From Gammaproteobacteria bacterium (GTDB lineage: Bacteria > Pseudomonadota > Gammaproteobacteria > Pseudomonadales > Halomonadaceae): a DNA stretch of 25,214 nt. Under the pieces are notes generated by a model, which did not search any database, was not told where the DNA came from, and worked only from the letters and a program-made list of their open reading frames with translations. Position numbers and translations under genes: made by a program. The DNA lies in NCBI GenBank assembly GCA_023485185.1, contig JAMCZP010000331.1:3416-28629 (forward strand). The letters run 5' to 3'. Of the stretch, positions 2,458-25,214 are shown in pieces (within the stretch, counting starts at the first letter, position 1; each line of letters opens with the position of its first letter).

Positions 2458-2483
2458 GTGAGGGGGGTTACTTTTAAGCCATG

Positions 2484-3149: not shown

Positions 3150-3760
3150 GTGGTCGCCTCGCGATGGCGAAGCCCCGCCAATATGGTACTCATCAGTTGA
3201 TCCAACAGTTCATCCACTTTTAATTGCTGCCCCTGCCAATAACCCAAACGCTCGTTAAGCCCAAGCTGAACAAGACCGTGAACGCTGCCCCACAGAGTGC
3301 GTCCTAAGCGGCGGGCTTCGAGATCATCCAGCGCTGGCTGGTAGGATTTGAGCGACGCCTCTACCTGGGTAAACAGCGCCTCAATCAGATCGCTTTGCCG
3401 CTGATCAAGCTCGCCTTCTTGCGCCAGCGGATAATCAAACAGCAGTTGCCAGCGGTAGCAATCCTGCTCTGCAAACTGCCAGTAAGCACGCGCTAGTGAG
3501 CGTAACCATGGTTCAGGGTCATCATCCACAAGACTGGTAATGGTGTGCTGCAAGCGCGCCAAGGTTTCCACATTGACGTGCTGTAATAAGTTATTAAAGC
3601 TGCCATATAGCTTGAGCAGCGTGCTTGGGGCGCAGCCGACTTCTCTGGCAAGGGCACGCAGTGAGAGACCATGGACTGGCTGCTTAGCCAACCACTCATC
3701 ACAAGCGTGCATGACCTGCGCATGGAGGGCATCGGGCGCATGCTGTCTAGGACGGGCCAT
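3146..3760 (-). CDS. TetR/AcrR-family transcriptional regulator
   Basis: A 204-residue protein with an N-terminal TetR helix-turn-helix (residues 10-58; core SLRALAREVGCAPSTLLKLYGS) and an all-helical C-terminal ligand domain, including a WGSVHGLVQLGL segment seen in the TetR subgroup with WHG-type C-terminal domains. It is first in a two-gene minus-strand unit with the acyltransferase. The 192-base gap to the divergent SRAP gene contains an inverted repeat that could be its operator. By analogy with other TetR proteins it probably represses its own operon and perhaps the divergent one; the ligand may be an acyl compound, which is inference from the neighbour. Confidence 0.85.
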   Translation of the reverse strand: MARPRQHAPDALHAQVMHACDEWLAKQPVHGLSLRALAREVGCAPSTLLKLYGSFNNLLQHVNVETLARLQHTITSLVDDDPEPWLRSLARAYWQFAEQDCYRWQLLFDYPLAQEGELDQRQSDLIEALFTQVEASLKSYQPALDDLEARRLGRTLWGSVHGLVQLGLNERLGYWQGQQLKVDELLDQLMSTILAGLRHREATT

Positions 3761-3828
3761 GGCGATCTCTTAAGGTCAACGGCAAACGAGGAGGAATGCC
3801 TCACTGCACTTTAGCGGGAGTAAAGGAT

Positions 3829-3841
3829 GGTATAGGATACC
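3829..3841. promoter_or_regulatory. Possible TetR operator (inverted repeat)
   Basis: The repeat GGTAT-AGG-ATACC lies between the divergent TetR and SRAP genes, about 70 bases upstream of the TetR start. A dyad in this position is where a self-regulating TetR protein would bind. The arms are only 5 bases, so chance cannot be excluded. Confidence 0.35.
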
Positions 3842-3952
3842 TTACATCGAACACTGTTTTCGACACTAAAACGCTACATTTCGCGCTTTATTACGTGAAG
3901 TCCCCCACTATATCGGTACACTTGCGCTACGATTTTGTTTTAGGAGATAGGT

Positions 3953-4639
3953 ATGACGGGGCGCCTGCATGTACAAAACTTACCACTGTCCCGCTTATTA
4001 CCCTCTCTTATTCCCTCTGAGCCACTGGTAGAGTCCCCCAATTTAGCGCCCCGTCGCCCCATTTCCGCGATTCGGCTTGAGCAAGGGGAATATCGCCTCT
4101 CTTCGCTTTTCTGGGGCCTCACGCCGCCTTGGCTGGACGTGCTGGATCATGCGCCGCACTGTGCTCGTGCCGAAACCCTTGAGTCGCGAGCAATGTTTCG
4201 CGAGGCCTTTAGCGCTCGCCGCTGCGTGATTCCGGTTAGCGGCTTCTATCTGTGGAAAACTCAGCCGCGCAGCAAACAGCCCTATTTAGTAACCCAGGTG
4301 ACACGGGCACCCCTGCTGCTGGGCGCCTTATGGTGCCGCTACCACACTACGTTAACAGCGTTCACTGACTCAGCAGCACTGATCACGGTGCCTGCCAATC
4401 TTTTGCTATCACCGTTAACCGACCGCTTACCGGTCACTATTCAACCCCATGCGCTAAGTGCGTGGCTGGACCCAGATACCGACCTGGAAACACTGAATTC
4501 GCTATTAACGCCTGCGCCCTTGGAACTGTTGGGCGCTTTTCCGGTATCAAAACATGTCAATAACCCCGCCTATCAGTCTTCGGTCTGTGCCCACCCTACG
4601 GGACCGATGCTGCGCTGGGCCGTGTCTCAGGAGACGTAA
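3953..4639 (+). CDS. SRAP (YedK/HMCES) family protein with replaced active site
   Basis: A 228-residue SOS-response-associated-peptidase-fold protein. Normal members (E. coli YedK, human HMCES) use Cys2 to crosslink abasic sites in single-stranded DNA, assisted by an Asn, a Glu and a His. The fold is recognisable (WGLTPPW, ARAET, RRCVIPVSGFY, DRLPV), but the catalytic positions read Thr2 (MTGR instead of MCGR), Cys70 (CARAET instead of NARAET), Leu100 (GFYLW instead of GFYEW) and Thr156 (LTDRLP instead of IHDRMP). Arg4 and Arg72, which contact DNA, are kept. The ATG has an AGGAG 6 bases upstream and no alternative start, so Thr2 is not an annotation error. Its TAA overlaps the ATG of the protease gene (TAATG). 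Likely a pseudoenzyme; any remaining function is unknown. Confidence 0.8.
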   Translation: MTGRLHVQNLPLSRLLPSLIPSEPLVESPNLAPRRPISAIRLEQGEYRLSSLFWGLTPPWLDVLDHAPHCARAETLESRAMFREAFSARRCVIPVSGFYLWKTQPRSKQPYLVTQVTRAPLLLGALWCRYHTTLTAFTDSAALITVPANLLLSPLTDRLPVTIQPHALSAWLDPDTDLETLNSLLTPAPLELLGAFPVSKHVNNPAYQSSVCAHPTGPMLRWAVSQET

Positions 4640-7488
4640 TGTTGCGACCCTCTTATGTAATGCGCTGGCATCAACTGCCTCAGCGTGCCCTGCTCAGCAT
4701 TGTCGCCAGTATCTGGTTAGCGCCGCTCGCGCTGGCTTCTGACGATGACGCTGTGGCCGAGGTCATCACGCCGAACGTTAGCCCTTATGACAGCCGTGAC
4801 TACCGCGTTTTAACGCTGGAAAATGGCCTTAATGTGCTACTGGTCAGCGACCCTGAGGCGGATAAAGCAGCGGCGTCAATGAATGTGCGTGTCGGCAGCG
4901 CCCAGGACCCCGAAGACCTGCAGGGGCTAGCGCACTTTCTTGAGCATATGCTGTTTTTAGGTACCGAACCCTACCCTGAATCCGACGCCTATCAGCGCTA
5001 CATTTCAGGCAACGCAGGGTCACACAACGCCTTTACCGCCCAGCAAGACACCAATTACTTCTTTGATATCGAGCCCTCGGCACTGCCCGGTGCCCTTGAC
5101 CGCTTTAGCGAGTTTTTTCTTTCGCCGCTGTTTAATGCAGATCATTTAGAGAGCGAGCGCAATATCGTTCACTCTGAGTATATGGCCCGCATTCGTGACG
5201 AATCCCGGCGCGAAAATGACGTACTCAATCAACTGCTCAATCCTAACAACGCCACGACTGGTTTTGCCGTGGGCAGCCGTGAGACCTTAGCCAGCCCGCC
5301 TGAAGGCGAAACGACGCTGCGCGAGCGAGTGATTGATTTTTATCACCAATATTACGACGCCAATGTCATGAATCTGGCGATTGTGGCACCGCAGCCGCTG
5401 GATACGCTTGAAGAGTGGGTAGCCGAACGCTTTGCCGACATTCCAGATAACGACCTGCGCGTGCCGACGATCGACGAGCCGTTAGTAGATCCTGACACCC
5501 TGCCGCGCTATATCGAACGCCAATCGCTGCAGGATCGTCGTCAGCTGCGCTTTTACTTCCCGGTTCCCGACCCCACCGATGACTACCGTAGTAAGCCGAC
5601 ACAACTCATCTCGCACCTGCTGGGTGATGAAGGGGATGGCAGCTTGCTAGCGGTACTGCGTGACGCAGGGCTCGCCGACGGTCTCTCTGCTGGCATTGGC
5701 CGTGGCGATGGTAAAGATGCCCTGTTTACCGTCTCTGTCAGTCTGACACCCGCCGGTGCTGAGCGTTTGGATGATATCGAAGCCACTCTGTTTGCCGCTA
5801 TTGAGCAACTACAAGACGACGGCCTCGCCTCCTGGCGCTATGAGGAACAGGCCAATCTTAACGAGCAGGCCTTCCGCTTTCAGCAGCATGGTGCGCCTCA
5901 ACAGGAAGCGACCCGCCTCTCCATGAGCCTTTCGCGCTACCCAGTGGAAGATGTACAGTACGCGGCTTACCGCATGGATGGCCCCGATGCCGAGCGCCAA
6001 CAGGCCTATCTCGATGCATTAACACCAGATAACATGCTGCGCTTCTACTCAGCGCCAGATGTAGAAAGCGACACCATCTCACCCTGGTTCAATACCCAGT
6101 GGAACGAGCAAACGCCTAACCAGTCAGGCCAAGCCCTTAGCGGCTTAGCACTGCCCGGCCCTAACCCCTTTATTGCCAATGATTTAACGCTTTTGGAAGG
6201 CCAGGACGAACACCCCAGTCAGTTAGTAGATACACCTTCATTTACTGCTTGGCATATGCAGGATGCGCGGTTCAACACCCCAAGCGTTGAATGGCGCGTC
6301 AGCCTGCAACACCCCAGCGCGAGCTACTCCGCTGAAGAAGCAGTGCTCACCCGTCTACTCGCCAGTTGGCTCAACGACAGCTTAAATGAATCGCTCTATC
6401 CCGCCTGGCTGGCAGGTCAAGCGTTCAGCGCCTACCCGCACGCCCGTGGCATGACACTCTCATTCTCCGGCTGGCGGGATGGTCAAACGCCGCTGATTGA
6501 GCAGGCCCTCAAGCAGCTTAAAACGGAGGAAATTACCGACGGCGCCTTTGAGCGCGTGCGCTACCAACTGCAGCGCGAGTGGCGCAATGCCCCTCAGGCA
6601 TCGCTTTACGGCCAAGCCAGCCGCACGCTCGGCGAAGCCTTGCTTACACCGCAGTGGTCAAACGCTGATTTTCTGACCGCTAGCGAGCGCTTTGAGCGCA
6701 ACCATTTGGTAGACTTCCGCAAACGCTTTCTAAAAGATCTTTACGTCGACGCCATGGCGGTGGGAAATCTTGACGCCGACTTAGCGCGCGAACAGGCCGA
6801 GATCATGCGTGGCTATCTTCGTCCGCGTTTAACCCGCGACGATATTGCCAACCTTACGCCTCTGGCGGTTAGCGAAGAGCACCGAGTGCTCCACCCTCAT
6901 AGCACCCGTGAAGAGTCGTTGATACTGCGTTATATGCAGGGACGCGACCAAACGCCCAAAGAGCAAGCCACGACCAGCGTGATCGCCCAGTGGTTAGAGA
7001 CGCCGTTCTACCAGCAGTTGCGCACTGAGCAGCAACTAGGATACGTGGTGAACGCAGGCTATTCGCCGCTGCTTGAAGCGCCTGGGATTGCGTTAGTTGT
7101 TCAATCACCGGATGTCGACAGCGACACCATTGCAGAGCGTATGGATACGTTCCTTGAAGAAGCTAGTCAGCGCCTTGAGCAATTAAGCGATGAGGACTTG
7201 GCGCCCTACCGCCAGGCAGTCAACAACCAACTGCGTCAGCGTGATACCAGCCTACCAGGCATGGCCAACCGCTACTGGCAGGCAACGGCATTAGAAGAGG
7301 TGCGTTTTGATCGCCGTGAGCAACTGGCCGACTTAGTGCTGAACGTGAGCCTGGAGGATATACAAGCGCTCTGGCCGTCGCTGCTCGAGCACACGCTGGA
7401 CATTCGCTTCAACCCAGAAGATGAACCCAGCGATGTGGCTGCCTATCGAGAAGCGCGCTCAGCGCTTCCCAACGTGCATAATGAATAA
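4639..7488 (+). CDS. ptrA: Periplasmic M16 family metalloprotease (pitrilysin/insulinase type)
   Basis: A 949-residue zinc protease close in length to E. coli protease III. A signal peptide is evident: a basic start, a hydrophobic core (about residues 18-32) and a signal-peptidase site after ALA at 31-33, so the mature enzyme is periplasmic. The inverted zinc motif HFLEH spans residues 99-103 (zinc ligands His99 and His103, catalytic Glu102), with the distal ligand Glu180 in RNIVHSE, 77 residues on as in pitrilysin. Four M16 half-domains account for the rest. It should degrade small peptides and misfolded fragments. The start codon shares its A with the stop of the SRAP gene, so it is probably translated from the same mRNA. 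This differs from the usual recBCD-linked location of ptrA in enterobacteria. Confidence 0.9.
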   Translation: MLRPSYVMRWHQLPQRALLSIVASIWLAPLALASDDDAVAEVITPNVSPYDSRDYRVLTLENGLNVLLVSDPEADKAAASMNVRVGSAQDPEDLQGLAHFLEHMLFLGTEPYPESDAYQRYISGNAGSHNAFTAQQDTNYFFDIEPSALPGALDRFSEFFLSPLFNADHLESERNIVHSEYMARIRDESRRENDVLNQLLNPNNATTGFAVGSRETLASPPEGETTLRERVIDFYHQYYDANVMNLAIVAPQPLDTLEEWVAERFADIPDNDLRVPTIDEPLVDPDTLPRYIERQSLQDRRQLRFYFPVPDPTDDYRSKPTQLISHLLGDEGDGSLLAVLRDAGLADGLSAGIGRGDGKDALFTVSVSLTPAGAERLDDIEATLFAAIEQLQDDGLASWRYEEQANLNEQAFRFQQHGAPQQEATRLSMSLSRYPVEDVQYAAYRMDGPDAERQQAYLDALTPDNMLRFYSAPDVESDTISPWFNTQWNEQTPNQSGQALSGLALPGPNPFIANDLTLLEGQDEHPSQLVDTPSFTAWHMQDARFNTPSVEWRVSLQHPSASYSAEEAVLTRLLASWLNDSLNESLYPAWLAGQAFSAYPHARGMTLSFSGWRDGQTPLIEQALKQLKTEEITDGAFERVRYQLQREWRNAPQASLYGQASRTLGEALLTPQWSNADFLTASERFERNHLVDFRKRFLKDLYVDAMAVGNLDADLAREQAEIMRGYLRPRLTRDDIANLTPLAVSEEHRVLHPHSTREESLILRYMQGRDQTPKEQATTSVIAQWLETPFYQQLRTEQQLGYVVNAGYSPLLEAPGIALVVQSPDVDSDTIAERMDTFLEEASQRLEQLSDEDLAPYRQAVNNQLRQRDTSLPGMANRYWQATALEEVRFDRREQLADLVLNVSLEDIQALWPSLLEHTLDIRFNPEDEPSDVAAYREARSALPNVHNE

Positions 7489-7499
7489 GTCGCACTGCT

Positions 7500-7538
7500 A
7501 AAAAAACCGATTCTGGCTCAGGCGTCAAACGCCTGAGC
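7500..7538 (-). terminator. Hairpin at the 3' end of sbcB, possible terminator
   Basis: A perfect 9-bp stem, GCTCAGGCG (7516-7524) with CGCCTGAGC (7530-7538), includes the sbcB stop codon. On the minus strand a run of seven T follows (7507-7501), but 8 bases beyond the stem, so termination is plausible rather than textbook. The two genes converge here, so it may also act against transcripts from ptrA. Confidence 0.4.
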
Positions 7539-9011
7539 TGGCATCATCGCTTCTATAAACATGACCAGCTCTTCCAGAATTTGCCGTTCGCGATCAGAGA
7601 GGGTTTGCTGATTGTACTGAGCAATTTCCCGCGCAAAAGCCTTTAATGTAAAGCCCGCCACCGCAGGGTCATTAATACGCATCCAGCGATACGCCTCCCA
7701 CTGCTCGCGCTCTTCACCTTCTAGCGTGTCGGGATAGTTGCGCGCGCGATAGCGAAATAGCATCTCTTCCAAGCGCGGATCTTGAAACGCAAAGCGTTGA
7801 CCCACCAGATCCCACGGCTCCATTTCCCGCACTCGCTCCATCTGCTGACGGTCCGCAGCGGAGAAGAAACTGCCGGAATAGAGCATCAAATCCGGGTCTT
7901 GCGGCGCATCCTCATACCCTGCACTGAATACCTCGGCGACTTTGCTAGTGAGACCACTGGCATCGCGCAGGGCTTTCCAGTGCCGTCGACAGATCTTCAC
8001 ATCTAAGCCTAAGCGCTCAACGATTGTCCCGTATTCACCCTTTTGCGGCCCATCAACATCTTTTAAGGCGCTGGCGGGAAACACCACCGGACAGCGATTG
8101 ATATGAATCACCTTCAGTGGGATGCGCACTTCACCTTCAGCTAAATCCTGCTGGCTGACAAACACACGCTCACGGATTTGCTCGGCGCTCATACTCAGCA
8201 AATCGCTAGGATCAACGCTTAAATCGTAAACAATCACCCCATTAGGGTTGGTGGGATGCTCGGCCAGCGGCATCACTAAGGCACTGCAGCCTCTGCTGGC
8301 AGGATATCGGCGGGAAATATGCAGTAGTGGTTTAGCACTGGGTAAATCGAGCTGGCTGGCAACCGCACGCTTGCCACGCAGGCCAAGCAAATAGTCGAAT
8401 AACTTGGCATTGCGCGCTTTGAGCAAGCGAGCCAAGGCTATGGTCGCCCGCACGTCGGCCACCGCATCGTGAGCGCCTTCATGGGCTATACCATTGGCGG
8501 CGGTTAAATGCTCCAGCTTAAAGCTCGGCGCGCCATCTTCCCGCAATGGCCATTCTATGCCCGAGGGGCGCAGTGCATAAAACGCGCGTACAACATCGAT
8601 TAAATCCCAGCGGGAGTTACCGTTCTGCCATTCGCGGGCATAAGGATCGAGCAGGTTGCGGTAAAACAGATGGCGCGAGACTTCATCGTCAAAACGTAAG
8701 CTGTTATAGCCGACCACGCAGGTGCCGGGCTCGCTCATATAGCGCTGTATTTCGCCTGCGAATGCCGCTTCTGGAATACCATGGCGCTGAGCTTTTTGAG
8801 GGGTAATACCGGTGATCAAACAGGCTGCAGGATGGGGTAAATAATCATCAGCCGGCTTGCAATAAAGCTCTATCGGTTCGCCGATCTCATTCAAATCGGC
8901 GTCGGTTCGTAGCGCGGCAAATTGCGCAGGTCGGTCGCGACGCGGATCCGCCCCGAAGGTTTCATAGTCATGCCATAGGAAACTGACAGGGGCAGCATTG
9001 GGTGGCGCCAT
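7518..9011 (-). CDS. sbcB: Exodeoxyribonuclease I
   Basis: A 497-residue 3'-5' single-strand DNA exonuclease of the DEDDh group. Catalytic residues Asp15 and Glu17 (HDYETFG), Asp108 (LRFDDE), His181 and Asp186 (HDAVADV) fall at the residue numbers known for E. coli ExoI. The SH3-like and C-terminal helical domains follow; length is slightly more than the E. coli protein (475). It trims 3' overhangs during mismatch repair and recombination and acts with SSB. The ATG has a GGAG 9 bases upstream. It lies downstream of minE on the same strand, with a 106-base gap, and converges with ptrA. Confidence 0.95.
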   Translation of the reverse strand: MAPPNAAPVSFLWHDYETFGADPRRDRPAQFAALRTDADLNEIGEPIELYCKPADDYLPHPAACLITGITPQKAQRHGIPEAAFAGEIQRYMSEPGTCVVGYNSLRFDDEVSRHLFYRNLLDPYAREWQNGNSRWDLIDVVRAFYALRPSGIEWPLREDGAPSFKLEHLTAANGIAHEGAHDAVADVRATIALARLLKARNAKLFDYLLGLRGKRAVASQLDLPSAKPLLHISRRYPASRGCSALVMPLAEHPTNPNGVIVYDLSVDPSDLLSMSAEQIRERVFVSQQDLAEGEVRIPLKVIHINRCPVVFPASALKDVDGPQKGEYGTIVERLGLDVKICRRHWKALRDASGLTSKVAEVFSAGYEDAPQDPDLMLYSGSFFSAADRQQMERVREMEPWDLVGQRFAFQDPRLEEMLFRYRARNYPDTLEGEEREQWEAYRWMRINDPAVAGFTLKAFAREIAQYNQQTLSDRERQILEELVMFIEAMMPAQAFDA

Positions 9012-15717: not shown

Positions 15718-15815
15718 GAAATGCTTTTTGTCATTCTAAATGGCAAAAAATGCTTGCAAATGGTTTTTTGCTGTCTAAAATGCTACTCAGGATGACATTC
15801 TGATATTTGGAATGC
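15718..15815. promoter_or_regulatory. Operator-rich control region between repressor and excisionase
   Basis: This A/T-rich gap holds several related sequences: the inverted repeat GCAAAAAA (15743-15750) with TTTTTTGC (15764-15771), the dyad CATTC (15796-15800) with GAATG (15810-15814), and loosely repeated elements such as GTCATTCTAAATG, GTCTAAAATG and GACATTCTGATAT. The arrangement resembles a phage-like switch where a Cro-type protein binds several operators over divergent promoters. No single promoter stands out. Confidence 0.5.
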
Positions 15816-15856
15816 CTTTTAGTCACGCAGAATACCACTCCTTTTGGAGGTTTTCG

Positions 15857-16096
15857 ATGGAATCATCTTTTACCTATCTCACGACCGAAGAACTTGCCCA
15901 GCGCATCAAGTATGACTGCCGCACTATCCGACAGCAGCTAAAAGACAGCGTCCTTATCGAGGGCACCCACTACATCAAGCCATTTGGCCGACGGAAGATT
16001 TTGTTCTTATGGGAAGCCGTTGAAAAAGAAATGCTAAAAGCCGCTCATGGCAACATTTCCATTCCGATGGCAAATGGAGGCTATAGCCATGGGTAA
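15857..16096 (+). CDS. Excisionase-like small DNA-binding protein
   Basis: A 79-residue protein beginning MESSFTYLTTEELAQRIKYDCRTIRQQL, a winged-helix/MerR-like excisionase fold in which the first helix pair reads the DNA and the KPFGRRKILFLWEAVEKEM part forms the wing and last helix. The ATG at 15857 is chosen because TGGAGG is 6 bases upstream; the longer open frame has no ribosome site. Its stop overlaps the integrase start by 8 bases (ATGGGTAA), so both are made from one mRNA. Position directly before int supports a recombination directionality factor; a helper DNA-binding protein is the alternative. Confidence 0.75.
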   Translation: MESSFTYLTTEELAQRIKYDCRTIRQQLKDSVLIEGTHYIKPFGRRKILFLWEAVEKEMLKAAHGNISIPMANGGYSHG

Positions 16097-17327
16097 GGTT
16101 CGCCAACGTAAAGAGACGGGGAAGCTCTATCTGGATTTTTTCTACCAAGGCCTACGGTTGCGTGAGCAAACTGCACTGAAAGACACGCCCACTAACAGAA
16201 AAAAGGTGGAGCAATTACTGGCAAAGGTAGAAGCAAAGATTTTGCTAGATGACCTCGACTATGCTGAGTTTTTCCCTGGCAGTAAAAATTTGCAGAAGCT
16301 GGGGTTAAATAACGCCGCTAAAAATCAATCTCTTCAAGCTGCACAGATTGAGAACACTCAACCGACTGTGGAGACACCGCTCTTCAACGATTTTTCTGAT
16401 CAGTGGTTCGACGAAAGCAAAATCCAATGGCGTGCCTCTCACGCACGCAATGTGAGTTCGATCTTGGATAGCTCGTTGAAGCCAGCGTTTGGGAAAAAGC
16501 CCATCGGAGATATATCCAAGGCCGACATCATGGCGTTTCGCACCAGACTAGCCAAGCGCAAGGGCCGCGGTACCACAGGGTTAGTGTCGCCAAAGACGAT
16601 CAACAGCCATATGTCCATTTTGCGTATGGTGCTTGATGAGGCGGCCGAGCGTTTCGATTTTGAGACGCCGTACAAAAATATTAAGCCGTTAAAGCTACAG
16701 AAGACGCATATCGAGCCGTTTTCACTACACGAGGTGCAACGCATCATCGACAACGTCCGCGCAGACTATTGCAACTATTACACGGTACGGTTCTTTACCG
16801 GCATGCGCACAGGCGAAGTCGATGGATTGAAGTGGAAAAACATTGATTTTGCTAAGCGTGAAATCTTAGTTCGCGAAACACTGATTAATGGCGAAACGGA
16901 ATACACCAAGACCGATGGGTCACAACGAGAAATCCCCATGTTCGGGCAAGTGTATGACGCCCTAAAAACGCAGTACGCCGCCACTGGGCATATGAGCCAA
17001 TACGTGTTCTGCAATCAACTGGGGCAGCCGCTTGATCACAATAATGTGACGAAGCGCGTGTGGTATCCCTTGCTGAAGTCTCTTGGGCTAACCAAGCGGC
17101 GCCCTTACCAAACACGCCATACCGCCGCGACGCTTTTTCTGGCCTCAGGTGAAAACCCGGAATGGGTGGCGCGAATGCTGGGCCACAGTTCAACCGAGAT
17201 GCTGTTCAAGGTCTATTCCCGTTACGTCCCCAATGCCACCCGTATGGATGGCTCTGCCTTTGAGCGTTTGTTAGGCAACACCACGCCCACTAAGCCCCAG
17301 AAGGAGCAGCGTCATGAAACGGCTTGA
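16089..17327 (+). CDS. int: Tyrosine recombinase / integrase of the element
   Basis: A 412-residue phage-type integrase. The N-terminal arm-binding region starts MGKVRQRKETGKLYLDFFYQGLRLREQT, followed by a SAM-like core-binding domain (about 100-205) and the catalytic domain. Catalytic residues visible are Arg240 (GMRTGE), Arg343 (PYQTRHT, with Tyr340 where many relatives have His), His344, His366 (MLGHSS) and the likely nucleophile Tyr376 (VYSRYVP). The start at 16089 is preferred because TGGAGG is 8 bases upstream. It should catalyse insertion at, and excision from, the neighbouring tRNA-fMet gene. It overlaps the excisionase-like gene upstream and the HD gene downstream. Confidence 0.93.
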   Translation: MGKVRQRKETGKLYLDFFYQGLRLREQTALKDTPTNRKKVEQLLAKVEAKILLDDLDYAEFFPGSKNLQKLGLNNAAKNQSLQAAQIENTQPTVETPLFNDFSDQWFDESKIQWRASHARNVSSILDSSLKPAFGKKPIGDISKADIMAFRTRLAKRKGRGTTGLVSPKTINSHMSILRMVLDEAAERFDFETPYKNIKPLKLQKTHIEPFSLHEVQRIIDNVRADYCNYYTVRFFTGMRTGEVDGLKWKNIDFAKREILVRETLINGETEYTKTDGSQREIPMFGQVYDALKTQYAATGHMSQYVFCNQLGQPLDHNNVTKRVWYPLLKSLGLTKRRPYQTRHTAATLFLASGENPEWVARMLGHSSTEMLFKVYSRYVPNATRMDGSAFERLLGNTTPTKPQKEQRHETA

Positions 17328-18273
17328 TAACGCCCCTACTCACCTGTCTCGCACCTTCACGGGCACTTATCGCCTTACTGGGCGCTTAGTAGAGTTCGAC
17401 AACGCGAAAACGCCCTTCTTAAAGCTGCGGCTAAGCGATTGTGTGGGGGATCAAATCGCGATGCTCAACTTGAGCAAAACAACAGTACCTGAGCGCATCG
17501 GCCACCTGGACTTTGTTACCGCTTCCGGAGTGAAGTGTTTGTCAGGCCAATTCCTACTTGATGAGTTTCGCAAGGCGACCCGAGAGGAAGTGATCTCGTT
17601 GATGACACTGCAATCGTTGCCGCGGGTATATTGCCCAGTACCAGAGGTATTCGATCAGTTAGTCGCAACCGTGCAATCGCTTCAATCGGAATGCCTCCGT
17701 ACGTTCTTGACGCGGGTACTGGAACGTAAAGATCGTCTTGAAGCCTTTCTGAATGCACCAGCCAGCGTGACGTACCACCATGCTTATCCGGGTGGCTTAC
17801 TAGAGCACTCGTTGAACGTCGCTAACAATGCTGTGGCAATGCTGCGCCTTAATGAGCCAGCCGTGCCGCGGCTGATGCAGGAAACTTGCTTTGTAGCGGG
17901 GTTATTGCACGATATTGGTAAGACATATACTTATGACTCCAAGGGCAAGCCAAATGCGGCCTGGAAGCTCTGCAGTCATGACGTGTTTACGCTAGAGGCT
18001 TGTGCCTACGGGCTTGCGTACTTAGATGCACATGAGCCCGATATTGCGATGACATTACGCCATGTGTGGACGTGTGCTTCGCCGGGCGCCCGTTACGGTC
18101 ATCCCGCAGCGATGACGTTGGCCCGTTATATTCGTGACGCGGATGGGCAAAGTGCGATGGCGGATAACCAACAGCGGGCTTTTCGCCGTCAATCTAGCAA
18201 AGGGTTCGGTCGGATTGGCCAGAACCTCTTTTGGCAGCCTCAACCTCAACTACCTGCTGTCGCATCTCAATAA
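17314..18273 (+). CDS. OB-fold/HD-domain protein (YhaM- or TraI_2-like) coupled to the integrase
   Basis: A 319-residue protein with an N-terminal OB-like beta region (about 15-75, GTYRLTGRLVEFDNAKTPFLKLRLSD) and a metal-dependent HD domain: His155-His156 (SVTYHHAYPGGLLEHSLNVA), His165, then His199-Asp200 (AGLLHDIGKTYTY) and SHD at 221-223. The same layout occurs in YhaM-type 3'-5' exonucleases, and the HHAYPGGLLEHSL motif also in the TraI_2 domain of MOBH relaxases. Nuclease activity is therefore likely but its target is unknown. The ATG overlaps the end of int by 14 bases with AAGGAG upstream, so it is co-translated with the recombinase. It may process DNA ends during excision or transfer; it lacks the long C-terminus of full relaxases. 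Confidence 0.7.
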   Translation: MKRLDNAPTHLSRTFTGTYRLTGRLVEFDNAKTPFLKLRLSDCVGDQIAMLNLSKTTVPERIGHLDFVTASGVKCLSGQFLLDEFRKATREEVISLMTLQSLPRVYCPVPEVFDQLVATVQSLQSECLRTFLTRVLERKDRLEAFLNAPASVTYHHAYPGGLLEHSLNVANNAVAMLRLNEPAVPRLMQETCFVAGLLHDIGKTYTYDSKGKPNAAWKLCSHDVFTLEACAYGLAYLDAHEPDIAMTLRHVWTCASPGARYGHPAAMTLARYIRDADGQSAMADNQQRAFRRQSSKGFGRIGQNLFWQPQPQLPAVASQ

Positions 18274-18296
18274 TGTACACCTCTGTTTTCGACCTG

Positions 18297-18324
18297 AGCC
18301 GTCCACTTGATGTGTGGCGGCTTT
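18297..18324 (+). terminator. Hairpin after the HD gene
   Basis: AGCCG-T-CCAC pairs with GTGG-CGGCT around a 7-base loop (one bulged T), followed by only two further T. It lies in the 73-base gap before the next gene and ends close to that gene's ribosome site, so it could be a weak terminator or a translational control element. Confidence 0.3.
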
Positions 18325-18346
18325 ACCAGACTTACTGGAGAATTTT

Positions 18347-18565
18347 ATGACCATGCCAAGTGAGCGCACACGATCGGTCATTCAGGCCCGCGAGTTCTTA
18401 ATAGTGCTTAGCCATAACACAGATATTTCAGAATCCACCCGCAGGCAAGCAAAGCAGCTATTAAGGCATTACCCGTCACGGATGGATATACTTGGGGCTG
18501 GCCAACTGGAGGAGCACCTAGTTGACGGGACCATCTTTCAGCCGGTTTTCAGTTCGACTATTTAG
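18347..18565 (+). CDS. BPSL0761-like small genomic-island protein
   Basis: A 72-residue protein starting MTMPSERTRSVIQAREFL with REAK/RRQAKQLLRHYPSRMDI later; this N-terminal MTMPxERTR and central RRxAKxLLRHYPS pattern is what I recall for the BPSL0761 family, small uncharacterised proteins of islands and plasmids. The ATG has CTGGAG 6 bases upstream; an upstream alternative start in the same frame lacks one. No enzyme motif is visible. It probably belongs to the same transcription unit as the integrase and HD genes. Function unknown. Confidence 0.65.
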   Translation: MTMPSERTRSVIQAREFLIVLSHNTDISESTRRQAKQLLRHYPSRMDILGAGQLEEHLVDGTIFQPVFSSTI

Positions 18566-18749
18566 TAGTGAGTACGGTCAATGGTTATCTTCCTCTATCA
18601 TAAAGAAAAAACTTTACTCACCCAAAAAGCAATGACTCTTTCAATGCGCCACTTGAGTCTACTAGAACGGACAACACCAACGCCTCCTCTTTCCCTCGGA
18701 GGTAAGAAGACATACCCCACAAAAAAACGGGAGATATCAGTAGTAAGAG

Positions 18750-19100
18750 TGAACCGCCCCGGTTATTCCGGTGACCGGTTTGTTTGAGTCAGGCAGCTTC
18801 ACCCGACTCCTCCAGTTGACGATAATACGTTCTTTCTCGTTCTGCTGGTGGAACGTTTCCGATGGGTTCAAGCAGTCGGCGATTGTTAAACCAGTCAACC
18901 CCCTCCAGCGTGGCATATTCAACGGCATCTAGCCCCTTCCTTGAACCACGATGGTGAATCACCTCCGTTTTGAATAGGCCGATTATGGTCTCGGCCAGCG
19001 CATTGTCGTAGGAGTCGCCGGTGGTGCCGACTGAGGCATCGATACCCTCTTCAGCCATACGCTCTGTGTAGCGGATCGAGAGATATTGGCTTCCTCGGGC
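18750..19100 (-). mobile_element. IS3-family insertion sequence remnant
   Basis: The terminal inverted repeat is recognisable from 18750, TGAACCGCCCCGG continuing to about 18778, the end typical of one IS3 subgroup. Only the 3' end of the transposase follows. Homology stops near 19100 where the IS110-type element begins, and the rest of the IS3 element is not found on the far side, so it was truncated rather than merely interrupted. Confidence 0.8.
18789..19100 (-). pseudogene. IS3 transposase OrfB, C-terminal fragment
   Basis: In one frame the fragment reads RGSQYLSIRYTERMAEEGIDASV, then GTTGDSYDNALAETIIGLFKTEVIHH and VDWFNNRRLLEPIGNVPPAE, the end of the rve integrase core with the last catalytic Glu (in NALAET). 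The first two catalytic Asp residues and everything N-terminal are missing, so it cannot be active. Confidence 0.85.
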
Positions 19101-19113
19101 GCCCTTCTAAGTG

Positions 19114-20192
19114 TCAAGTGGCGATTTGCGTCTGGTTGATCTCCCGATGACGGCTGCGCATCACATAATAGAGCTCCCGTGCAATATAGCGTTTCAGGCA
19201 TCGAATGGCTTCCAGCTTGGAGTGGCCCTCTGCTACCCGCCGGGCAATGTATGCCTGAGTGTCGGCATCCAAGCGTAGTCACCCGATGGCGATGATATGC
19301 AGCGCACTATTGGCGGCCCGATCGCCACCCCGGTTGAGCCGGTGCCGCTGCGTCTTGCCTGACGAGGCAGGAATAGGACTAACGCCACATAGCGCCGCAA
19401 AGCTGGCTTCTTAGCGAAGACGGTCCGGATTGTCGCCTGCTGTGATCAGTAGCTGTGCCGCCGACTCGTAGCCTACTGCCGTTCGCGACACCAACTTTGG
19501 TGCCAGATCATCGACGATAGCCTTGATCATGACGTCCAAATCGGCAATCTCGTCGTGTAGCTCCAGGTAGCGGCGCGCGAGGGATTTCAAAGCGATGCGG
19601 TAGGCCATTGTGACTTCCCGACATCCAATCAGTCAGGGCGCCATGCGGCCGGCGTTCGGATCAACTTCATCCGCGACATGTTGCTCAACTGATCGCGCAG
19701 CTCCTCTAGTGCGGAGATAACCTGGGTCTGGATCATCTGAAGCGCCACACGGCGAGCTGCCACGGTAGTCTTCCGGCAGACCTTGAGTGCGCGCAAGGCC
19801 TCGATCATGCCATCACGGGTCTTTGGAGTGACGGTGCAAACGCCCGCATAGGCTACGTGAGCGGCATTCTCTGCATCGATGGCGTCATCCTTGCCACGCT
19901 TGCGCCGTACGGTCTTATCGGGTGTCGTGACCTCCAGGATAGTGATACCGGTGCGCTGCAAGCAGCGCAGCAGTCCAGCTCCATAGGTGCCGGTGCATTC
20001 GATCCCTACCCGGCTGACCTCGCCGAAGGAGCGCATCCAGGTCAGCATGGTCTTGTAGCCATGCCGGGTGGTCGGAAAGCTGGCGGTGCCAAGCACGCGG
20101 CCATGGGCATCCACGACGGCGGCCACATGCAGCTCCTTGTGGGTATCAACACCGCCGATAATGACAGAGCGATCACTGGGTTGCTGACTCAT
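19114..20192 (-). pseudogene. IS110-family transposase, frameshift and two nonsense codons
   Basis: The N-terminal DEDD (RuvC-like) domain is intact: the first Asp in IGGVDTHKELHVAAV, Glu in GIECTGTYGAGL, and Asp residues in GKDDAIDAENAA. This frame stops at 19629-19631. Homology continues in another frame (IALKSLARRYLELHDEIADLDV), and the C-terminal transposase_20 domain (EASFAALCGVSPIPASSGKTQRHR; ANSALHIIAIG) follows after an in-frame TAA (19411-19413) and is cut again by TGA (19279-19281) before the natural end at 19114. About 359 codons in total, a normal length, so the gene was once complete. Inactive. Confidence 0.85.
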
Positions 20193-20430
20193 GGTGGGTC
20201 TCCAAGCTATTGATTCAGGATGGCTTCACCGAGTTCGATAGCCTGGACACGACAGTAATGAAAGGCTGTCAGGCCCTTCTTGAGTCACATGCTTCGACGA
20301 GGTGAGCCCTCGCTGCCAGATGTTCCCGGGTCACCGACAGGTCCGTGGAAAGACACACTACCCGGTCGATCAGAGTGAGGGTCAGGAGACCCTAGAACCC
20401 TGGCGGCACCAGGTCTTTCAGCATAGGTCG
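20193..20430 (-). ncRNA. Possible fossil bridge RNA region of the IS110 element
   Basis: IS110-type elements encode a structured bridge RNA in the non-coding end upstream of the transposase. Here that stretch is about 240 bases long and contains compact hairpins: CCTGG/CCAGG with a 5-base loop (20399-20413), AGGGTC/GACCCT with a 4-base loop (20378-20393) and GAGG/CCTC (20299-20311). Identification rests on position and these stems only; no alignment to a known bridge RNA was possible and target loops are not assigned. Confidence 0.35.
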
Positions 20431-20438
20431 ATCGCTGT

Positions 20439-20717
20439 GTGAGTCAGGTCGACCCTGAAACACCCGGCATCTCTCAGTATTACTGCGCCCTTCTCAATAT
20501 CACTACACGGGGCCAGGACGATAACGGTAAATCCATTACTAAATCCGCTATCAAGCTAGTAACGCCGTTTCAAGCGGGACAGATCCAGCGACTGATTAGC
20601 CAATGGCCCGCCACGACCCAGGAGTGGTTCAGCGGTAAATACGGTTCAGCCGTGCAAGTCCCCCAGGCTGACTTCGACAAGCTACGTGCATCGCTCGTGA
20701 AACGTGCCGTTCAATAA
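20439..20717 (+). pseudogene. Truncated gene of unknown function next to the IS110 end
   Basis: An open frame of about 92 codons, readable from a GTG at 20439 but with no ribosome site, which begins right at the presumed IS110 boundary. The protein (ISQYYCALLNITTRG, then KLVTPFQAGQIQRLISQWPATTQEWF, ending LRASLVKRAVQ) looks like a natural soluble domain with a real C-terminus, so the IS probably removed the 5' part. I do not recognise the family. It could be an accessory gene of the integrated element. Confidence 0.5.
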
Positions 20718-20810
20718 CGTGCCAATGCCCCCGTTAAAAAGGAAGCCCTATGCAACTGCTGACAGTGGCGCAAGGCTCCCCCGAACGGCCGTCTTCGTGC
20801 TGGTCCCGTC

Positions 20811-21165
20811 CTCCTTGGCCTAGGTCATGCCGCCAACGCACTGGTCATCCTCCTTGGCGAAGCGCTCCAAGTCTTCCGGTTACCTGCGGTTACGCCTAAG
20901 CGTGTATTGCTGGCCGTTAGAACAATCACCGCTAGCGAGCCGCGCACCCAAGAGGCCTTGATCGTCTAGACCGAACCGTGTTGCGAGCACTGCAGGAAAC
21001 CGACAATGCCTTCAAAGTCTATGGCACAGCGGGCAGCACGCTTGGACTGTATTTGCTTGAGTCAGCAGTAAATCGCGAGGTGGCTCGTCTTGCCCGCGTG
21101 CGGTTCTCAGCAGGTGAAAGCATCTACATGGATGTGCTCAAAGCCGAACGGTCCGACTTTGTAAG
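20811..21165 (+). pseudogene. Decayed TolC/OprM-type outer membrane efflux protein
   Basis: Two pieces in different frames match the outer membrane factor of RND pumps. The first (20811-20897) reads LLGLGHAANALVILLGEALQVFRLP, resembling the segment that joins the halves of these proteins. The second (20969-21160) reads DRTVLRALQETDNAFKVY and later NREVARLARVRFSAGESIYMDVLKAERSD, resembling their last helical hairpin. The order is right but well over 100 residues between them are missing, and the N-terminal half is absent. Clearly dead. Its position before copA suggests the remains of a metal-efflux (Cus/Czc-like) cluster. Confidence 0.65.
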
Positions 21166-21329
21166 TCGGCGCGCACCACCAGTCTTTCGCACCAAGCAAT
21201 GGCTTGCGATTGTCAGTATCTAAAAAGCGCAGGACGGCTGCTGGGAGATTTGCTGGCAAACGGATTACGACTGCGGCTAAGCCGACGGAGGCCCAAACCA
21301 GTGCTTCACAAAATAAATTCGCCCAGGGC

Positions 21330-21360
21330 TTGACCTTCCCATTGTGGGAAGGTCCAAGCT
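21330..21360 (+). promoter_or_regulatory. CueR-type (MerR family) promoter/operator of copA
   Basis: A -35 TTGACC (21330-21335) is separated by exactly 19 bases from a -10-like CAAGCT (21355-21360), the stretched spacing typical of MerR-family promoters. Inside lies a perfect dyad: GACCTTCCCA (21332-21341), three bases TTG, and TGGGAAGGTC (21345-21354). ACCTTCC...GGAAGGT is the known CueR recognition pattern at copA promoters, so Cu(I)-dependent activation is likely. No cueR gene is in the window. Confidence 0.85.
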
Positions 21361-21395: not shown

Positions 21396-23945
21396 ATGGC
21401 TACCGTCACACACCAACAAGATACTAAATCATCAATATCCTTCGACACTCGTCTGAGCCTGCCGGTCGAAGGCATGACGTGCGCATCGTGTGTCGGCCGT
21501 GTAGAAGCGGCATTGAAAGCTATACACGGCGTCGAAGGCGCAAACGTTAACCTAGCAACAGAAAAAGCGGAGATAACATTGACGGCCCCGGTCGCGCGTG
21601 AGGTGTTGGCAAAAGCGGTTCGGGAGGCTGGCTATGATGTTCCGAAAGCGTCGATTGATCTGGCGATCACCGGCATGACCTGCGCCTCCTGCGTCGGCCG
21701 GGTCGAAAAAGCACTGAAGGCGGTGCCCGGAGTAACCACGGCCACAGTCAACCTCGCAACCGAGAGTGCTCATATAACAGGCGGCGCAGACCTAGCCACA
21801 CTGATTGAGGCGGTCGCACAAACCGGCTATGAAGCCAAACCGATCGATCGGAGCAGCGACGAACATGCTGAAACGGCCGCTCGCAAGGATGCAGAGGAAG
21901 CCGCTCTCAAGCGCGACTTGACGCTGGCAGCTGCATTAACGCTCCCTGTTTTCATCCTTGAAATGGGCAGTCACCTCATTCCCGGCATGCATGAGCTGAT
22001 CATGAACACAATCGGCATGCAGACCAACTGGTATATTCAGTTCGGCTTTACGCTTCTGGTGCTCAGCATTCCTGGCCTTCGTTTCTATACCCACGGCTTT
22101 CCGATGCTGCTGCGCGGCACGCCAGACATGAATAGTCTCGTCGCGGTGGGCACGTCCGCCGCGTTTCTCTATTCGGTCGTGGCAACTTTCACACCGTCAC
22201 TGCTCCCAGCAGGCACCGTGAACATCTATTTTGAGGCGGCCGCGGTCATCGTCACCCTTATTCTGCTGGGTCGGTATCTCGAAGCGCGCGCTAAGGGCCG
22301 TACATCGGAGGCGATCAAGCGTCTCGTCGGTCTCCAGCCCAAGATGGCTCGGGTGCGCCGTGACGGCCAGACCACCGAGATTGCCGTCGCCGATGTCGCA
22401 CCTGGCGATATCATTGAGGTGCGACCCGGCGAGCGTGTGCCGGTCGATGGCACGGTGATCGAAGGAAAAAGCTACATAGACGAATCCATGATCACCGGCG
22501 AGCCGGTTCCGGTCGCCAAGTCGAAAAGCTCGGAGGTAGTGGCTGGCACGGTCAACCAGACCGGAGCGCTAGTCTTCGAGGCGACCGCCGTCGGAGCCAA
22601 TACGATGCTCGCGCAGATCATCCGTATGGTCGAGGAGGCGCAGGGATCTAAGCTGCCAATCCAGGCCGTGGTTGACCGGGTGACTATGTGGTTCGTGCCG
22701 GCCGTCATGCTGGCTGCCGCGGCAACCTTTATCGTCTGGATGATCTGGGGTCCCGACCCTGCTCTCACCTTTGGCCTCGTCAACGCAGTGGCCGTGCTGA
22801 TCATAGCCTGCCCTTGTGCCATGGGTCTCGCTACGCCGACCTCAATCATGGTAGGCACCGGGCGCGGGGCTGAGATGGGCGTACTCTTCCGCAGAGGCGA
22901 AGCCTTACAGCTTCTTAAAGAAGCGAAGGTCGTTGCACTCGACAAGACCGGCACCCTCACTGAGGGCAAACCGGCTCTGACGGATCTCCACCTAGCCGAA
23001 GGCTTCGACCGACAAGACGTTCTTGCCAAGATTGCGGCTGTTGAAGTCCAGTCCGAGCATCCCATCGCACGTGCCATCGTCGAAGCGGCCAAGGCCGAAG
23101 GGCTGGATCTACCGCAAGTGAAGGGGTTCGATTCCGTAACCGGTTTGGGCGTCGAGGCCGAGGTAGAAGGCGTACGTGTCGAGATTGGCGCCGACCGCTT
23201 CATGACCAAGCTTGGTCTCGATACGGCCCTGTTCACCGAGACTGCCCACAGGCTCGGTGACGAAGGCAAGACCCCGCTTTATGCGGCGATCGACGGAAAG
23301 CTCGCCGCCATCGTGGCGGTCGCCGATCCGATCAAGGAAACGACGCCCGAGGCGATCAGAGCGCTGCATGATCTGGGGCTTAAGGTCGTGATGATCACCG
23401 GCGACAACCGCCGCACGGCCGAGGCCATCGCACGCCACCTTGGCATCGATGAGGTCGTGGCTGAGGTGCTGCCCGGTGGAAAGGTGGACGCGGTCAAGCG
23501 GTTGAAAGCTGAGTATGGTCGACTCGCCTTCGTGGGCGACGGCATCAATGATGCACCGGCATTGGCAGAGGCCGATGTCGGCCTTGCCATCGGCACCGGC
23601 ACCGACGTGGCCATCGAAGCGGCCGATGTCGTTCTGATGTCCGGCAGCCTGAAAGGGGTGCCTAACGCAATCGCGATCAGCCAAGCGACGATCCGCAATA
23701 TCAAGCAGAACCTGTTCTGGGCCTTCGCCTACAACACAGCGCTGATCCCAGTAGCGGCGGGAGTGCTCTATCCTACCTTCGGCCTGCTGCTGTCGCCGAT
23801 CTTTGCAGCCGGCGCCATGGCCCTCTCCAGCGTTTTCGTCCTTGGTAATGCCCTGCGGCTGCGCCGGTTCAAGGCGCCGATGCACGGCGATGTGGCCTCC
23901 CATAGCACTAGTGTCAAACAGCCGCGCCTCGCCGCAGCGGAGTAA
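21396..23945 (+). CDS. copA: Cu(I)-exporting P1B-type ATPase
   Basis: An 849-residue inner membrane pump that exports cytosolic Cu(I). Two N-terminal heavy-metal domains carry GMTCASC (Cys29/Cys32 and Cys96/Cys99). The membrane metal site CPC is at 472-474, the phosphorylated Asp516 in DKTGTLT, the P1B signature His555-Pro556 in SEHP, and GDGIND at 714-719; eight membrane helices are expected. The start at 21396 is chosen for CAGGAG 7 bases upstream; the open frame continues 64 codons further but without signals and into the operator. A CueR-type promoter precedes it. Codons are more G/C-ending than in the backbone genes, and the sequence style resembles alphaproteobacterial CopA, which suggests transfer. 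Confidence 0.96.
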
Positions 23946-23992: not shown

Positions 23993-24016
23993 ACAACAAA
24001 CACAATGGAGGACATC

Positions 24017-25214
24017 ATGGTCTTCGAAAAAAATGCAGTCATACCCACTCTCCTCACGATCTATACAACGCCGACCTGCCCAGATTGCCACGCCCTAAAG
24101 GCATGGCTCCATCGCGAAGGCATCCTCTACGACGAACGCAATCTGACCGAGCAGGCCGTCATGCAGGAGGCGCTGGATCGCTACGGCGTGCGGGTTGCTC
24201 CGATTACCGCCGGAGAAGGCTGGTTCACTTACGGTAGTTTCGCAAAGCAGAAACCCGAGATCGAAGCAGTACTTCAGGCGCGGGCGCGAGTCATCACACA
24301 AAATGAAGCAACCCCCTCCCCCTCAAGCAAGGTTTGGATACAACAAGCGAACCGAACCATTCCGGTTCTCACAACCCAGACCGTTTTGGACGCAGCGCTC
24401 GAACAAGGTATCGACTATCCGCATGGATGCCGATCTGGACGCTGTGGCACTTGTAAGTCGCGTCTGATCGACGGCAAGGTCGATTTTCTGGAACATAGCC
24501 GTTTCGCGCTCACAGATACAGAGAAGGCGCAGGGGCTGATCCTTGCCTGCTGCTCGATCCCGACAACGGATGTGATTGTCGCGTGGCTTGGCGGCGACGA
24601 GGAGTTCCCATCCCATCCACACCGCCGTCTAAACTGTCGAGTGACCGCGATCGGGGACGCTACACACGACATCAAGGATATCCGGCTCGCTATCGACGGC
24701 GGCGAACCACTCGCTTTTACCGCAGGCCAATACGCTCGGCTTACCTTCCCGGGCGCTCCCTCCCGAGATTATTCCATGGCGTGCCAGCCCGGCGATAGAG
24801 AACTCGAATTCCATATCCGCCAGGTGCCGGGTGGGGTCGCAACCCAGCGCATCCATGCGCAGTTGAAGGTCGGTGATCCGGTAATGGTCGAAGGGCCATT
24901 CGGCTCTTCCTACCTGCGCGAGCAGCATGCAGGGCCGATCCTTTGCGTCGCCGGTGGCTCGGGCCTTGCGCCGATCAAAGGGATTGTAGAGACGGCAATC
25001 GCAAGCGGTATGAAGCAACCTATCCATGTTTATTTCGGTGCACGCAGCGTCCGCGATCTCTATCTCGTAGACCATTTTGAGAGTCTAGCGGAACGGCACC
25101 CCAACCTCGCTTTCACCCCCGTCCTTTCCTATGCTTCTTTGGATGCCGATGCCCCTTGGCGCACAGGCCTCGTGACCGATGTCATTGCCACGGATCTGGA
25201 GGATTTCGACGGCT
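24017..25214 (+). CDS. Glutaredoxin-[2Fe-2S] ferredoxin-FAD/NAD reductase fusion (partial, runs off the edge)
   Basis: The frame is open from ATG 24017 to the window end, at least 399 codons without a stop. Three modules are seen. Residues 8-88: a glutaredoxin/NrdH-like fold with the redox motif CPDC (21-24) and the cis-Pro region VRVAPIT (58-64). Residues 105-195: a plant-type ferredoxin with C138-x4-C143-x2-C146 (HGCRSGRCGTC) and the fourth ligand in LACC (178-179). Residues 200 onward: a ferredoxin-reductase FAD domain with RDYS (250-253) and an NAD(P)-binding start GGSGLAP (313-319). Electrons could flow NAD(P)H to FAD to the cluster to the dithiol. GGAGG is 5 bases before the start. It follows copA by 71 bases and may share its copper-induced promoter. 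Substrate unknown. Confidence 0.85.
   Translation, partial: MVFEKNAVIPTLLTIYTTPTCPDCHALKAWLHREGILYDERNLTEQAVMQEALDRYGVRVAPITAGEGWFTYGSFAKQKPEIEAVLQARARVITQNEATPSPSSKVWIQQANRTIPVLTTQTVLDAALEQGIDYPHGCRSGRCGTCKSRLIDGKVDFLEHSRFALTDTEKAQGLILACCSIPTTDVIVAWLGGDEEFPSHPHRRLNCRVTAIGDATHDIKDIRLAIDGGEPLAFTAGQYARLTFPGAPSRDYSMACQPGDRELEFHIRQVPGGVATQRIHAQLKVGDPVMVEGPFGSSYLREQHAGPILCVAGGSGLAPIKGIVETAIASGMKQPIHVYFGARSVRDLYLVDHFESLAERHPNLAFTPVLSYASLDADAPWRTGLVTDVIATDLEDFDG

Follow-up and report, generated by a model that had tools for sequence, protein, structure and literature searches.

The window analysed here, a stretch of 25,214 nucleotides, contains one reading frame in which a glutaredoxin-like domain, a plant-type [2Fe-2S] ferredoxin domain and an FAD/NAD(P)H reductase are joined behind the copper-exporting ATPase gene copA. 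Beyond the fused cases, the reductase module proved to be linked to copA, or else to its own CueR-type box, in 69 of the 74 unique loci which its clade comprises. Every single domain is already known, but neither the three-module fusion nor the CueR-type tie across the clade was found described in the open-access literature, and the module is very probably a redox partner of the copper-export system.

A three-module redox gene follows copA

The copA gene (21396..23945, + strand) encodes a Cu(I)-exporting P1B-type ATPase with two HMA matches, an E1-E2_ATPase match and a Hydrolase match in Pfam, and with the motifs CASC (listed with the two HMA domains), CPC, DKTGT and GDGIND. Upstream of it lies a CueR-type operator/promoter (21330..21353, + strand; TTGACCTTCCCATTGTGGGAAGGT) with the −35 hexamer TTGACC and the dyad ACCTTCC-N7-GGAAGGT; a −10-like hexamer follows at 21355-21360 with a spacer of 19 bases, and 42 bases separate the operator end from the copA start. 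The first-pass annotation had put the fused gene under a CueR-type promoter, and the site was indeed matched with 0/17 mismatches, by a pattern which was itself derived from this site. The copA stop and the next ATG on the same strand, at 24017, are 71 bases apart, exactly as that annotation had it, and no CueR-type box was found directly upstream of the window's own glutaredoxin part (best site, 8 mismatches).

From ATG 24017, which has GGAGG just 5′ of it and an in-frame ATG at 24005 as an alternative start, the frame stays open for 399 codons without a stop to the window end (24017-25213). The gene (24017..25214, + strand; defined from the open frame and Pfam) has its 3′ end beyond the window, and since two proteins of the same architecture, P0002 and P0003, both have 452 aa, approximately 53 C-terminal residues lie outside. 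The frame had been proposed to run uninterrupted through glutaredoxin, ferredoxin and reductase, and the Pfam-A search suggested for it returned all four expected domains in this order, each above its gathering cut-off: Glutaredoxin (PF00462, residues 14-62, E 6.9e-11), Fer2 (PF00111, residues 109-183, E 4.6e-17), FAD_binding_6 (PF00970, residues 207-298, E 1.3e-9) and NAD_binding_1 (PF00175, residues 311-396, E 2.1e-11).

Along the + strand, a glutaredoxin/NrdH-like domain (24050..24292, approximately residues 12-92) with CPDC at 24077-24088 (residues 21-24) is followed by a linker of residues 93-104 (24293..24328), which was placed from the junctions of 14 loci (2 fused) and a codon comparison with the Roseitalea locus L012, and which is the site of the grx stop and the fer2 start in unfused relatives. 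Next come the ferredoxin domain (24329..24604, residues 105-196), whose cluster cysteines C138, C143, C146 and C178 (C-x4-C-x2-C...C) are invariant in the alignment, the FAD-binding domain (24617..24934) with RDYS at residues 250-253, and the NAD(P)-binding domain (24935..25213), incomplete at the window end, with GGSGLAP at residues 313-319. CPDC, the cysteine set, RDYS and GGSGLAP all stood where they had been reported, and a predicted structure of the whole P0003 (pLDDT 80, pTM 0.64) lends model-based support to the domain assignments.

The window operon lies on an island and is of mixed descent

The exonuclease I encoded at 7518-9011 shares 94% identity with its Vreelandella indica counterpart and has its best named matches in Vreelandella and Halomonas; the left 15 kb is therefore a Halomonas/Vreelandella-type chromosome. 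An island (15800-21223) lies between this chromosome and the copper genes and holds an integrase (16047-17327), a TraI_2/HD protein (17314-18273), an IS110-type transposase remnant (19629-20192, minus strand) and short frames without Pfam matches. Because the first three of these separate copA from the chromosome, the copper genes are assigned to the island. In other records, a related operon is plasmid-borne.

The window CopA is 85% identical to that of L012 and at most 76% identical to the others among its ten best matches. With P0003 as the query, the identities to L012 were 76% for the Grx, 77% for the Fer2, 59% for the FAD and 54% for the NAD part, and the FAD and NAD parts of P0003 were 76-81% identical to loci of Luteibacter, Polaromonas and Massilia. 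A sliding comparison of the window's own protein placed a switch of relatives inside the ferredoxin domain. Judged from these identities, the window operon is a mosaic.

The fusion recurs in a few relatives

Searching the whole fused protein against 5.8 billion proteins gave 3544 matches, and among the best 120 of these three other full fusions were found: P0002 (93% identity, a cluster of 20 member sequences), P0003 (88%) and P0020 (58%, Pelagibacterium lentulum). Residues 1-105 of P0003 as a query led to the same three fused clusters, the query included, among 61 candidates, a number so small that distant fusions could escape this search. At the locus level, 84 loci were compared, comprising 80 genome loci (the best 80 of 120, from a pattern-based scan) and 4 plasmid regions, with identical copies kept. 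The gene was fused in two of them (L016 of P. lentulum and L022 of P. montanilacus); a separate grx gene stood directly 5′ of the reductase in 61, and 21 had no adjacent grx. These low counts agree with the first-pass view that a glutaredoxin added to such a reductase is unusual, and the survey which it called for did find the same fusion elsewhere, in three other protein clusters.

In L012, the closest relative of the window's copA-grx part, grx and fer2 share one frame with a single TGA, and an ATG follows two codons on. A sequencing or assembly error that fused two genes would agree with this interrupted frame and with the two separate genes of most loci; it is excluded in practice and exceedingly improbable because the same join occurs in P0002, P0003 and P0020, three clusters of which one has 20 members and one comes from a named Pelagibacterium genome, and no stop or frameshift lies between codons 88 and 105, where such an error had been expected to show.

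On the reductase tree, the label "fused", carried by the window group and by Pelagibacterium, takes three changes; given the mosaic nature of the window gene, this tree is compatible with one origin of the fusion as well as with several. In the genome of P. lentulum, L016 is fused and its near-copy L069 is not, and the fusion is therefore evidently optional. L016 and L069 are copA-grx-reductase operons on contigs of near-equal length, and the same genome carries a third reductase with a grx, L133. In a further protein, P0046 (401 aa, 67% identity), the frame includes no more of the glutaredoxin part than its C-terminal half, and CPDC is absent; this protein may be a decayed fusion or the result of a misassigned start site. 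None of the 62 pattern matches on viral contigs encodes a relative, and none of the 202 phage records with a match had one spanning 80% of the query; the five of the 202 that were listed are BenC/AntC-like or unannotated.

Copper linkage marks one clade of reductases

In the flanks of the 84 loci, a P1B ATPase was present in 74 and a CueR-like gene in 66; the sole ATPase of L024, L025 and L047 was distant (34-38%), and in 35 of the 84 loci the cueR match began 1,004-1,093 bases downstream of where the ferredoxin match starts. An operator with ≤4/17 mismatches was found in 56 of the 57 unique copA upstream regions, the window included, and the mean best mismatch was 2.2 in the copA regions versus 7.2 in shuffles. 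Upstream of grx or the reductase, 28 of 69 unique regions had a box of their own at ≤4 mismatches. As the background, ≤4 mismatches were reached by one or more of 30 shuffles in 7/57 copA and 6/69 grx/fer2 regions. A strict dyad (CCTT-N11..13-AAGG) had retrieved sites in only 19 of 71 copA upstream regions, the right half being degenerate, and was replaced by this mismatch scan.

Genomes of two classes were also searched, with the best 30 matches taken in each draw. In the class of G005 (Luteibacter), 63 of 274 genomes matched at E 1e-60, and four had a match of ≥49% identity, three of them in the copper clade, two of these three from genomes already sampled. In the class of G013 (Neorhizobium), 43 of 289 genomes matched at E 1e-60; among the best 30 loci, copper linkage was seen in three, of which two follow copA and one has a box to itself (genomes already sampled supplied two of these), and the other 27, at 47-59% identity, had no copper sign within approximately 1.5 kb. 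An FNR-seed identity of ≥47% was hence too wide a definition of a copper family, and for this reason the counts are given per clade.

After removal of 15 identical loci out of 90, and of L085-L114 as shorter cuts of places already represented, 75 unique loci at ≥47% identity were left: 39 followed copA on the same strand at no more than 600 bases (gaps of −20 to 429), 30 had a CueR-type box of their own (≤4/17 mismatches), and 6, L138 among them, had neither. Without L138, the copper clade comprises 74 unique loci, 69 of which are linked. The five unlinked clade loci are two at a contig end (L027, L056), two whose copA stands at another place in the locus (L023, L082), and L073 with no copper link. 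L073 (5986-6987, Alcaligenes pakistanensis) is the sole clade member that lacks a copper sign despite a flank of full length; among its neighbours are TctC, a sulfatase, a TonB receptor and a chromate transporter.

Linkage was seen in alpha-, beta- and gammaproteobacterial records. Two records sit oddly in the tree: a "Bacillus subtilis" contig (L059) groups with Brucellaceae and an "Oceanospirillaceae" MAG (L030) with Thalassospira, both possibly mislabelled or contaminated. In the Stenotrophomonas loci L007 (5840-7260), L008 and L010, grx and the reductase have their own box and no copA within the flanks; the four neighbours of L007 (abhydrolase, PAAR, amidase and metallophosphatase) have no evident copper role. 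Beside its grx-reductase pair, L032 carries at 2469-5640, on the opposite strand, a second P1B ATPase (34% to CopA) adjoining an ArsR-type regulator; an ATPase at this offset is found again in L034-L037, L042 and L045, the regulator having been examined in L032 only.

None of the 44 BenC-type controls (<47% identity) had copA, cueR or a box (0/44 for each), and none of the 27 sister-clade loci lay behind copA or had its own box (0/27); because the sequence spans no more than 2.6-4.1 kb in 26 of the controls and in every one of the 27 sister loci, distant copA genes could be missed in these, the other 18 controls having flanks of approximately 13-17 kb. In a quick tree of 153 rows (LG+G4, SH-aLRT only, with long control branches as in the second tree), the copper set (80 rows) and L073 formed one group with an SH-aLRT of 100, and the 27 sister loci formed one group with a support of 85, L138 falling outside the copper group. 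By the draws from the two classes, the copper clade is uncommon, and its sister is free of copper signs. Linkage to copper therefore characterises this clade rather than every reductase of like identity.

The sister-side Fer2-FNR reductases (L168-L194 and L138) have no copper linkage. Among four of their neighbourhoods, a short-chain dehydrogenase occurred in three (L138, L168 and L174), two of these with MarR; other neighbours were DctP and a cupin, and in L188 a nuclease-family protein was found along with a transhydrogenase subunit.

The reductase is of the BenC/GcoB type with clade-specific residues

With four cluster cysteines, an RxYS motif for FAD and a GGxGxxP motif for NAD(P), in that order, the reductase part belongs to the Fer2-FNR (BenC/GcoB) type, and its closest solved relatives were GcoB (5ogx) and BenC (1krh) both by sequence and by fold. 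The incomplete window copy scored 179.1 bits against the BenC equivalog NF040810, below its cut-off of 430 bits; in 29 genomes, six matches exceeded 430 bits, and the copper-linked copies scored approximately 187-214. No oxygenase gene was found in the window to 25214 or in the neighbourhoods of three annotated relatives; one Paracoccus locus, L032, has a FAD_binding_3 flavoprotein approximately 4 kb off.

Comparing 81 copper-clade rows with 28 sister and 44 control rows, we found six positions specific to the copper clade, R142, L158, H160, W400, F434 and P436, of which R142 (95%) and H160 (97%) were each present in ≤11% of the sister and control groups. R142 is within the ferredoxin cluster loop, and H160 is presumably near the cluster, by analogy with plant-type ferredoxins. 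This specificity suggests that the electron acceptor may have changed, though it does not amount to proof that copper is bound.

Clade-specific histidines were also considered as copper ligands and rejected. Against the 44 controls, 4 of 29 strict positions were histidine (H136, H160, H304 and H429; binomial P 0.026); after the sister clade had been added, one histidine (H160) was left among six strict positions (P 0.21). H304 and H429 are common to the sister clade and H136, which lies inside the peptide pattern used for locus finding, is partly so; being wholly or partly shared with a non-copper sister, the three are no evidence for copper binding.

The glutaredoxin-like domain is as near in fold to NrdH as to glutaredoxin

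Among the 63 grx copies that are adjacent or fused, 60 keep CPDC. The second active-site cysteine is not universal, since CPDF is found in L022, CPDD in L006 and CPDS in P0002; the grx of L048 has CSDC. The earlier label "glutaredoxin" holds as far as the Pfam domain goes, PF00462 being above its cut-off and the CxxC present as CPDC, and is loose otherwise, the glycine pair of the glutathione site being absent and the fold equally close to NrdH and to the dithiol cGrx1. Glutaredoxins bind glutathione at a site made of TVP and a glycine pair; in 32 aligned sequences inspected by eye, API was followed by G-x-F...P, and no glycine pair was found. NrdH-redoxins carry a WSGFRP motif, which is absent from this domain, and partner a class Ib ribonucleotide reductase; the NrdH model gave 31 versus 85.75 bits, and the frames scanned in the window include no nrd gene. 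W30 and the G-x-F...P stretch (mostly YGTFxxQKP) are conserved in the domain.

A proposed copper-induced electron supply and its alternatives

The copper-related role proposed in the first-pass annotation gained support from the linkage across the clade, and its reduction-for-export version fits at least as well as the dithiol reductase that was put first. Beyond the redox partnership itself, which we hold with high confidence, our preferred reading, at about even odds, is that copper induces a cytosolic supply of electrons to the Cu(I)-export route, with the Grx domain as the adaptor. That the acceptor is copper or a copper-thiolate, rather than a general protein disulfide, falls slightly short of even. 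The most specific reading, a dedicated CueR-controlled cytosolic copper reductase that has its own NAD(P)H input and feeds CopA, with the Grx-like partner for Cu(I)/thiol hand-over, is tentative and on balance doubtful; if true, it would give bacteria their first cytosolic copper-reduction system whose electron donor is known.

In such an electron supply, copper would act through CueR and might thereby induce the operon. Electrons from NAD(P)H would pass to FAD and then, one at a time, to the [2Fe-2S] cluster, as the families of the domains imply. The cluster might reduce Cu(II) or a copper-thiolate to Cu(I), for uptake by CopZ and CopA, and the CPDC domain might bind Cu(I) or swap thiols with the CxxC sites of CopA and CopZ, thus aiming the electrons. 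The fusion would tie this adaptor to the reductase; elsewhere the two are mostly encoded side by side, and sometimes the reductase stands without a neighbouring grx. As an adjacent grx is missing from 21 of the 84 loci, what stays constant is the reductase and what varies is Grx. BenC/GcoB-type reductases pass electrons singly through their [2Fe-2S] cluster, and the reduction of Cu(II) or a copper-thiolate fits because it is a one-electron task for a one-electron cluster. A point against a copper reductase is that the cytosol is already reducing, so that a dedicated enzyme may be superfluous.

The best surviving alternative is the self-contained reductase proposed at first, in which electrons run from NAD(P)H through FAD and [2Fe-2S] to CPDC and repair disulfides of CopA, CopZ or other proteins under copper stress. 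We rate this as unlikely. Ferredoxin-driven disulfide cleavage normally needs the [4Fe-4S] centre of FTR, an iron-sulfur-based module, and a Pfam scan of the fused protein found no FTR domain; a two-electron task is thus chemically awkward for a one-electron cluster of the BenC/GcoB type. An adjacent Grx is moreover missing from a quarter of the loci, and L022, L006 and P0002 have lost the second cysteine. In favour of it are the strong conservation of CPDC and the fusion in two groups far apart on the reductase tree, from which we infer that the grx and reductase parts probably touch. Precedents exist as well: human Grx1 is reported to accelerate redox exchange between glutathione and the CxxC of Atox1 and possibly to act on ATP7A (PMC5039574), copZ-prxgrx-gorB of B. 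pertussis is a CueR-controlled redox operon (PMC7794356), and a Grx-FTR fusion is on record (PDB 7pwe).

That the Grx-like domain serves iron-sulfur upkeep, carrying or rebuilding a copper-attacked [2Fe-2S] cluster of the ferredoxin domain, is improbable. The fusion would join carrier and client, and monothiol glutaredoxins bridge [2Fe-2S] clusters with BolA according to PMC7538681; here, however, the domain is mostly dithiol, lacks the glycine pair and in 21 of the 84 loci has no counterpart adjacent to the reductase. Even harder to sustain is an oxygenase electron-transfer component that merely rides on copper islands: GcoB and BenC, the nearest solved relatives, do serve oxygenases or P450s and the operon is on an island here and on plasmids elsewhere, but linkage extends over three proteobacterial classes, with own boxes when the module is away from copA, and the three annotated neighbourhoods hold no oxygenase.

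The fusion predicts physical cooperation of glutaredoxin and reductase, and a clade that follows copA or carries CueR boxes makes the cytosolic copper-redox step testable with a gene pair or a single fusion.

Comparison with known systems

How bacteria keep cytosolic copper as Cu(I) and the CxxC sites of the pump reduced is poorly known. A 2020 review calls cytosolic Cu(II) reduction necessary, describes specific bacterial cupric reductases as barely known, and states that it is unknown what donates electrons to CcoG and to the CopZ of A. fulgidus (PMC7558416). Glutaredoxins rise in Caulobacter under copper, and the portion of that report cited here names no such reductase (PMC8224329). In the open-access literature, we found no description of the fusion or of a copA-grx-ferredoxin-reductase operon, and no mention that CueR-type control extends over a whole clade of BenC-like reductases, be Grx present or not.

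BenC and GcoB (1krh, 5ogx) share with the present protein the Fer2-FAD-NAD(P) order, the cluster ligands, RxYS and GGxGxxP. They differ from it in that the present protein has an extra N-terminal CPDC domain, stands behind copA with no oxygenase seen, scores below the BenC cut-off and has clade-specific residues in or near the cluster loop. Compared with NrdH-redoxins and small dithiol glutaredoxins (1h75, 4fiw, 7c10), the domain here has no WSGFRP, shows W30 and G-x-F...P instead, and is fused to or beside a ferredoxin reductase. The Desulfotalea psychrophila fusion of glutaredoxin and ferredoxin-disulfide reductase (PDB 7pwe) likewise joins a glutaredoxin to an electron-transfer module; going by its entry, the partner there is FTR, whereas here it is a [2Fe-2S] ferredoxin with FNR and no FTR domain.

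The B. pertussis operon resembles the present one as a CueR-induced, NADPH-fed thiol and peroxide defence by copper genes that includes a glutaredoxin fusion; as its authors describe it, it comprises a peroxiredoxin-glutaredoxin and a glutathione reductase and depends on glutathione (PMC7794356), whereas Pfam found neither a peroxiredoxin nor a glutathione reductase domain here. CcoG and Archaeoglobus CopZ come closest in the proposed chemistry, the iron-sulfur-based Cu(II) reduction for CopZ and CopA that may also operate here (PMC7558416). CcoG is described there as a membrane protein with two tetranuclear clusters, whereas the present system has its NAD(P)H reductase built in.
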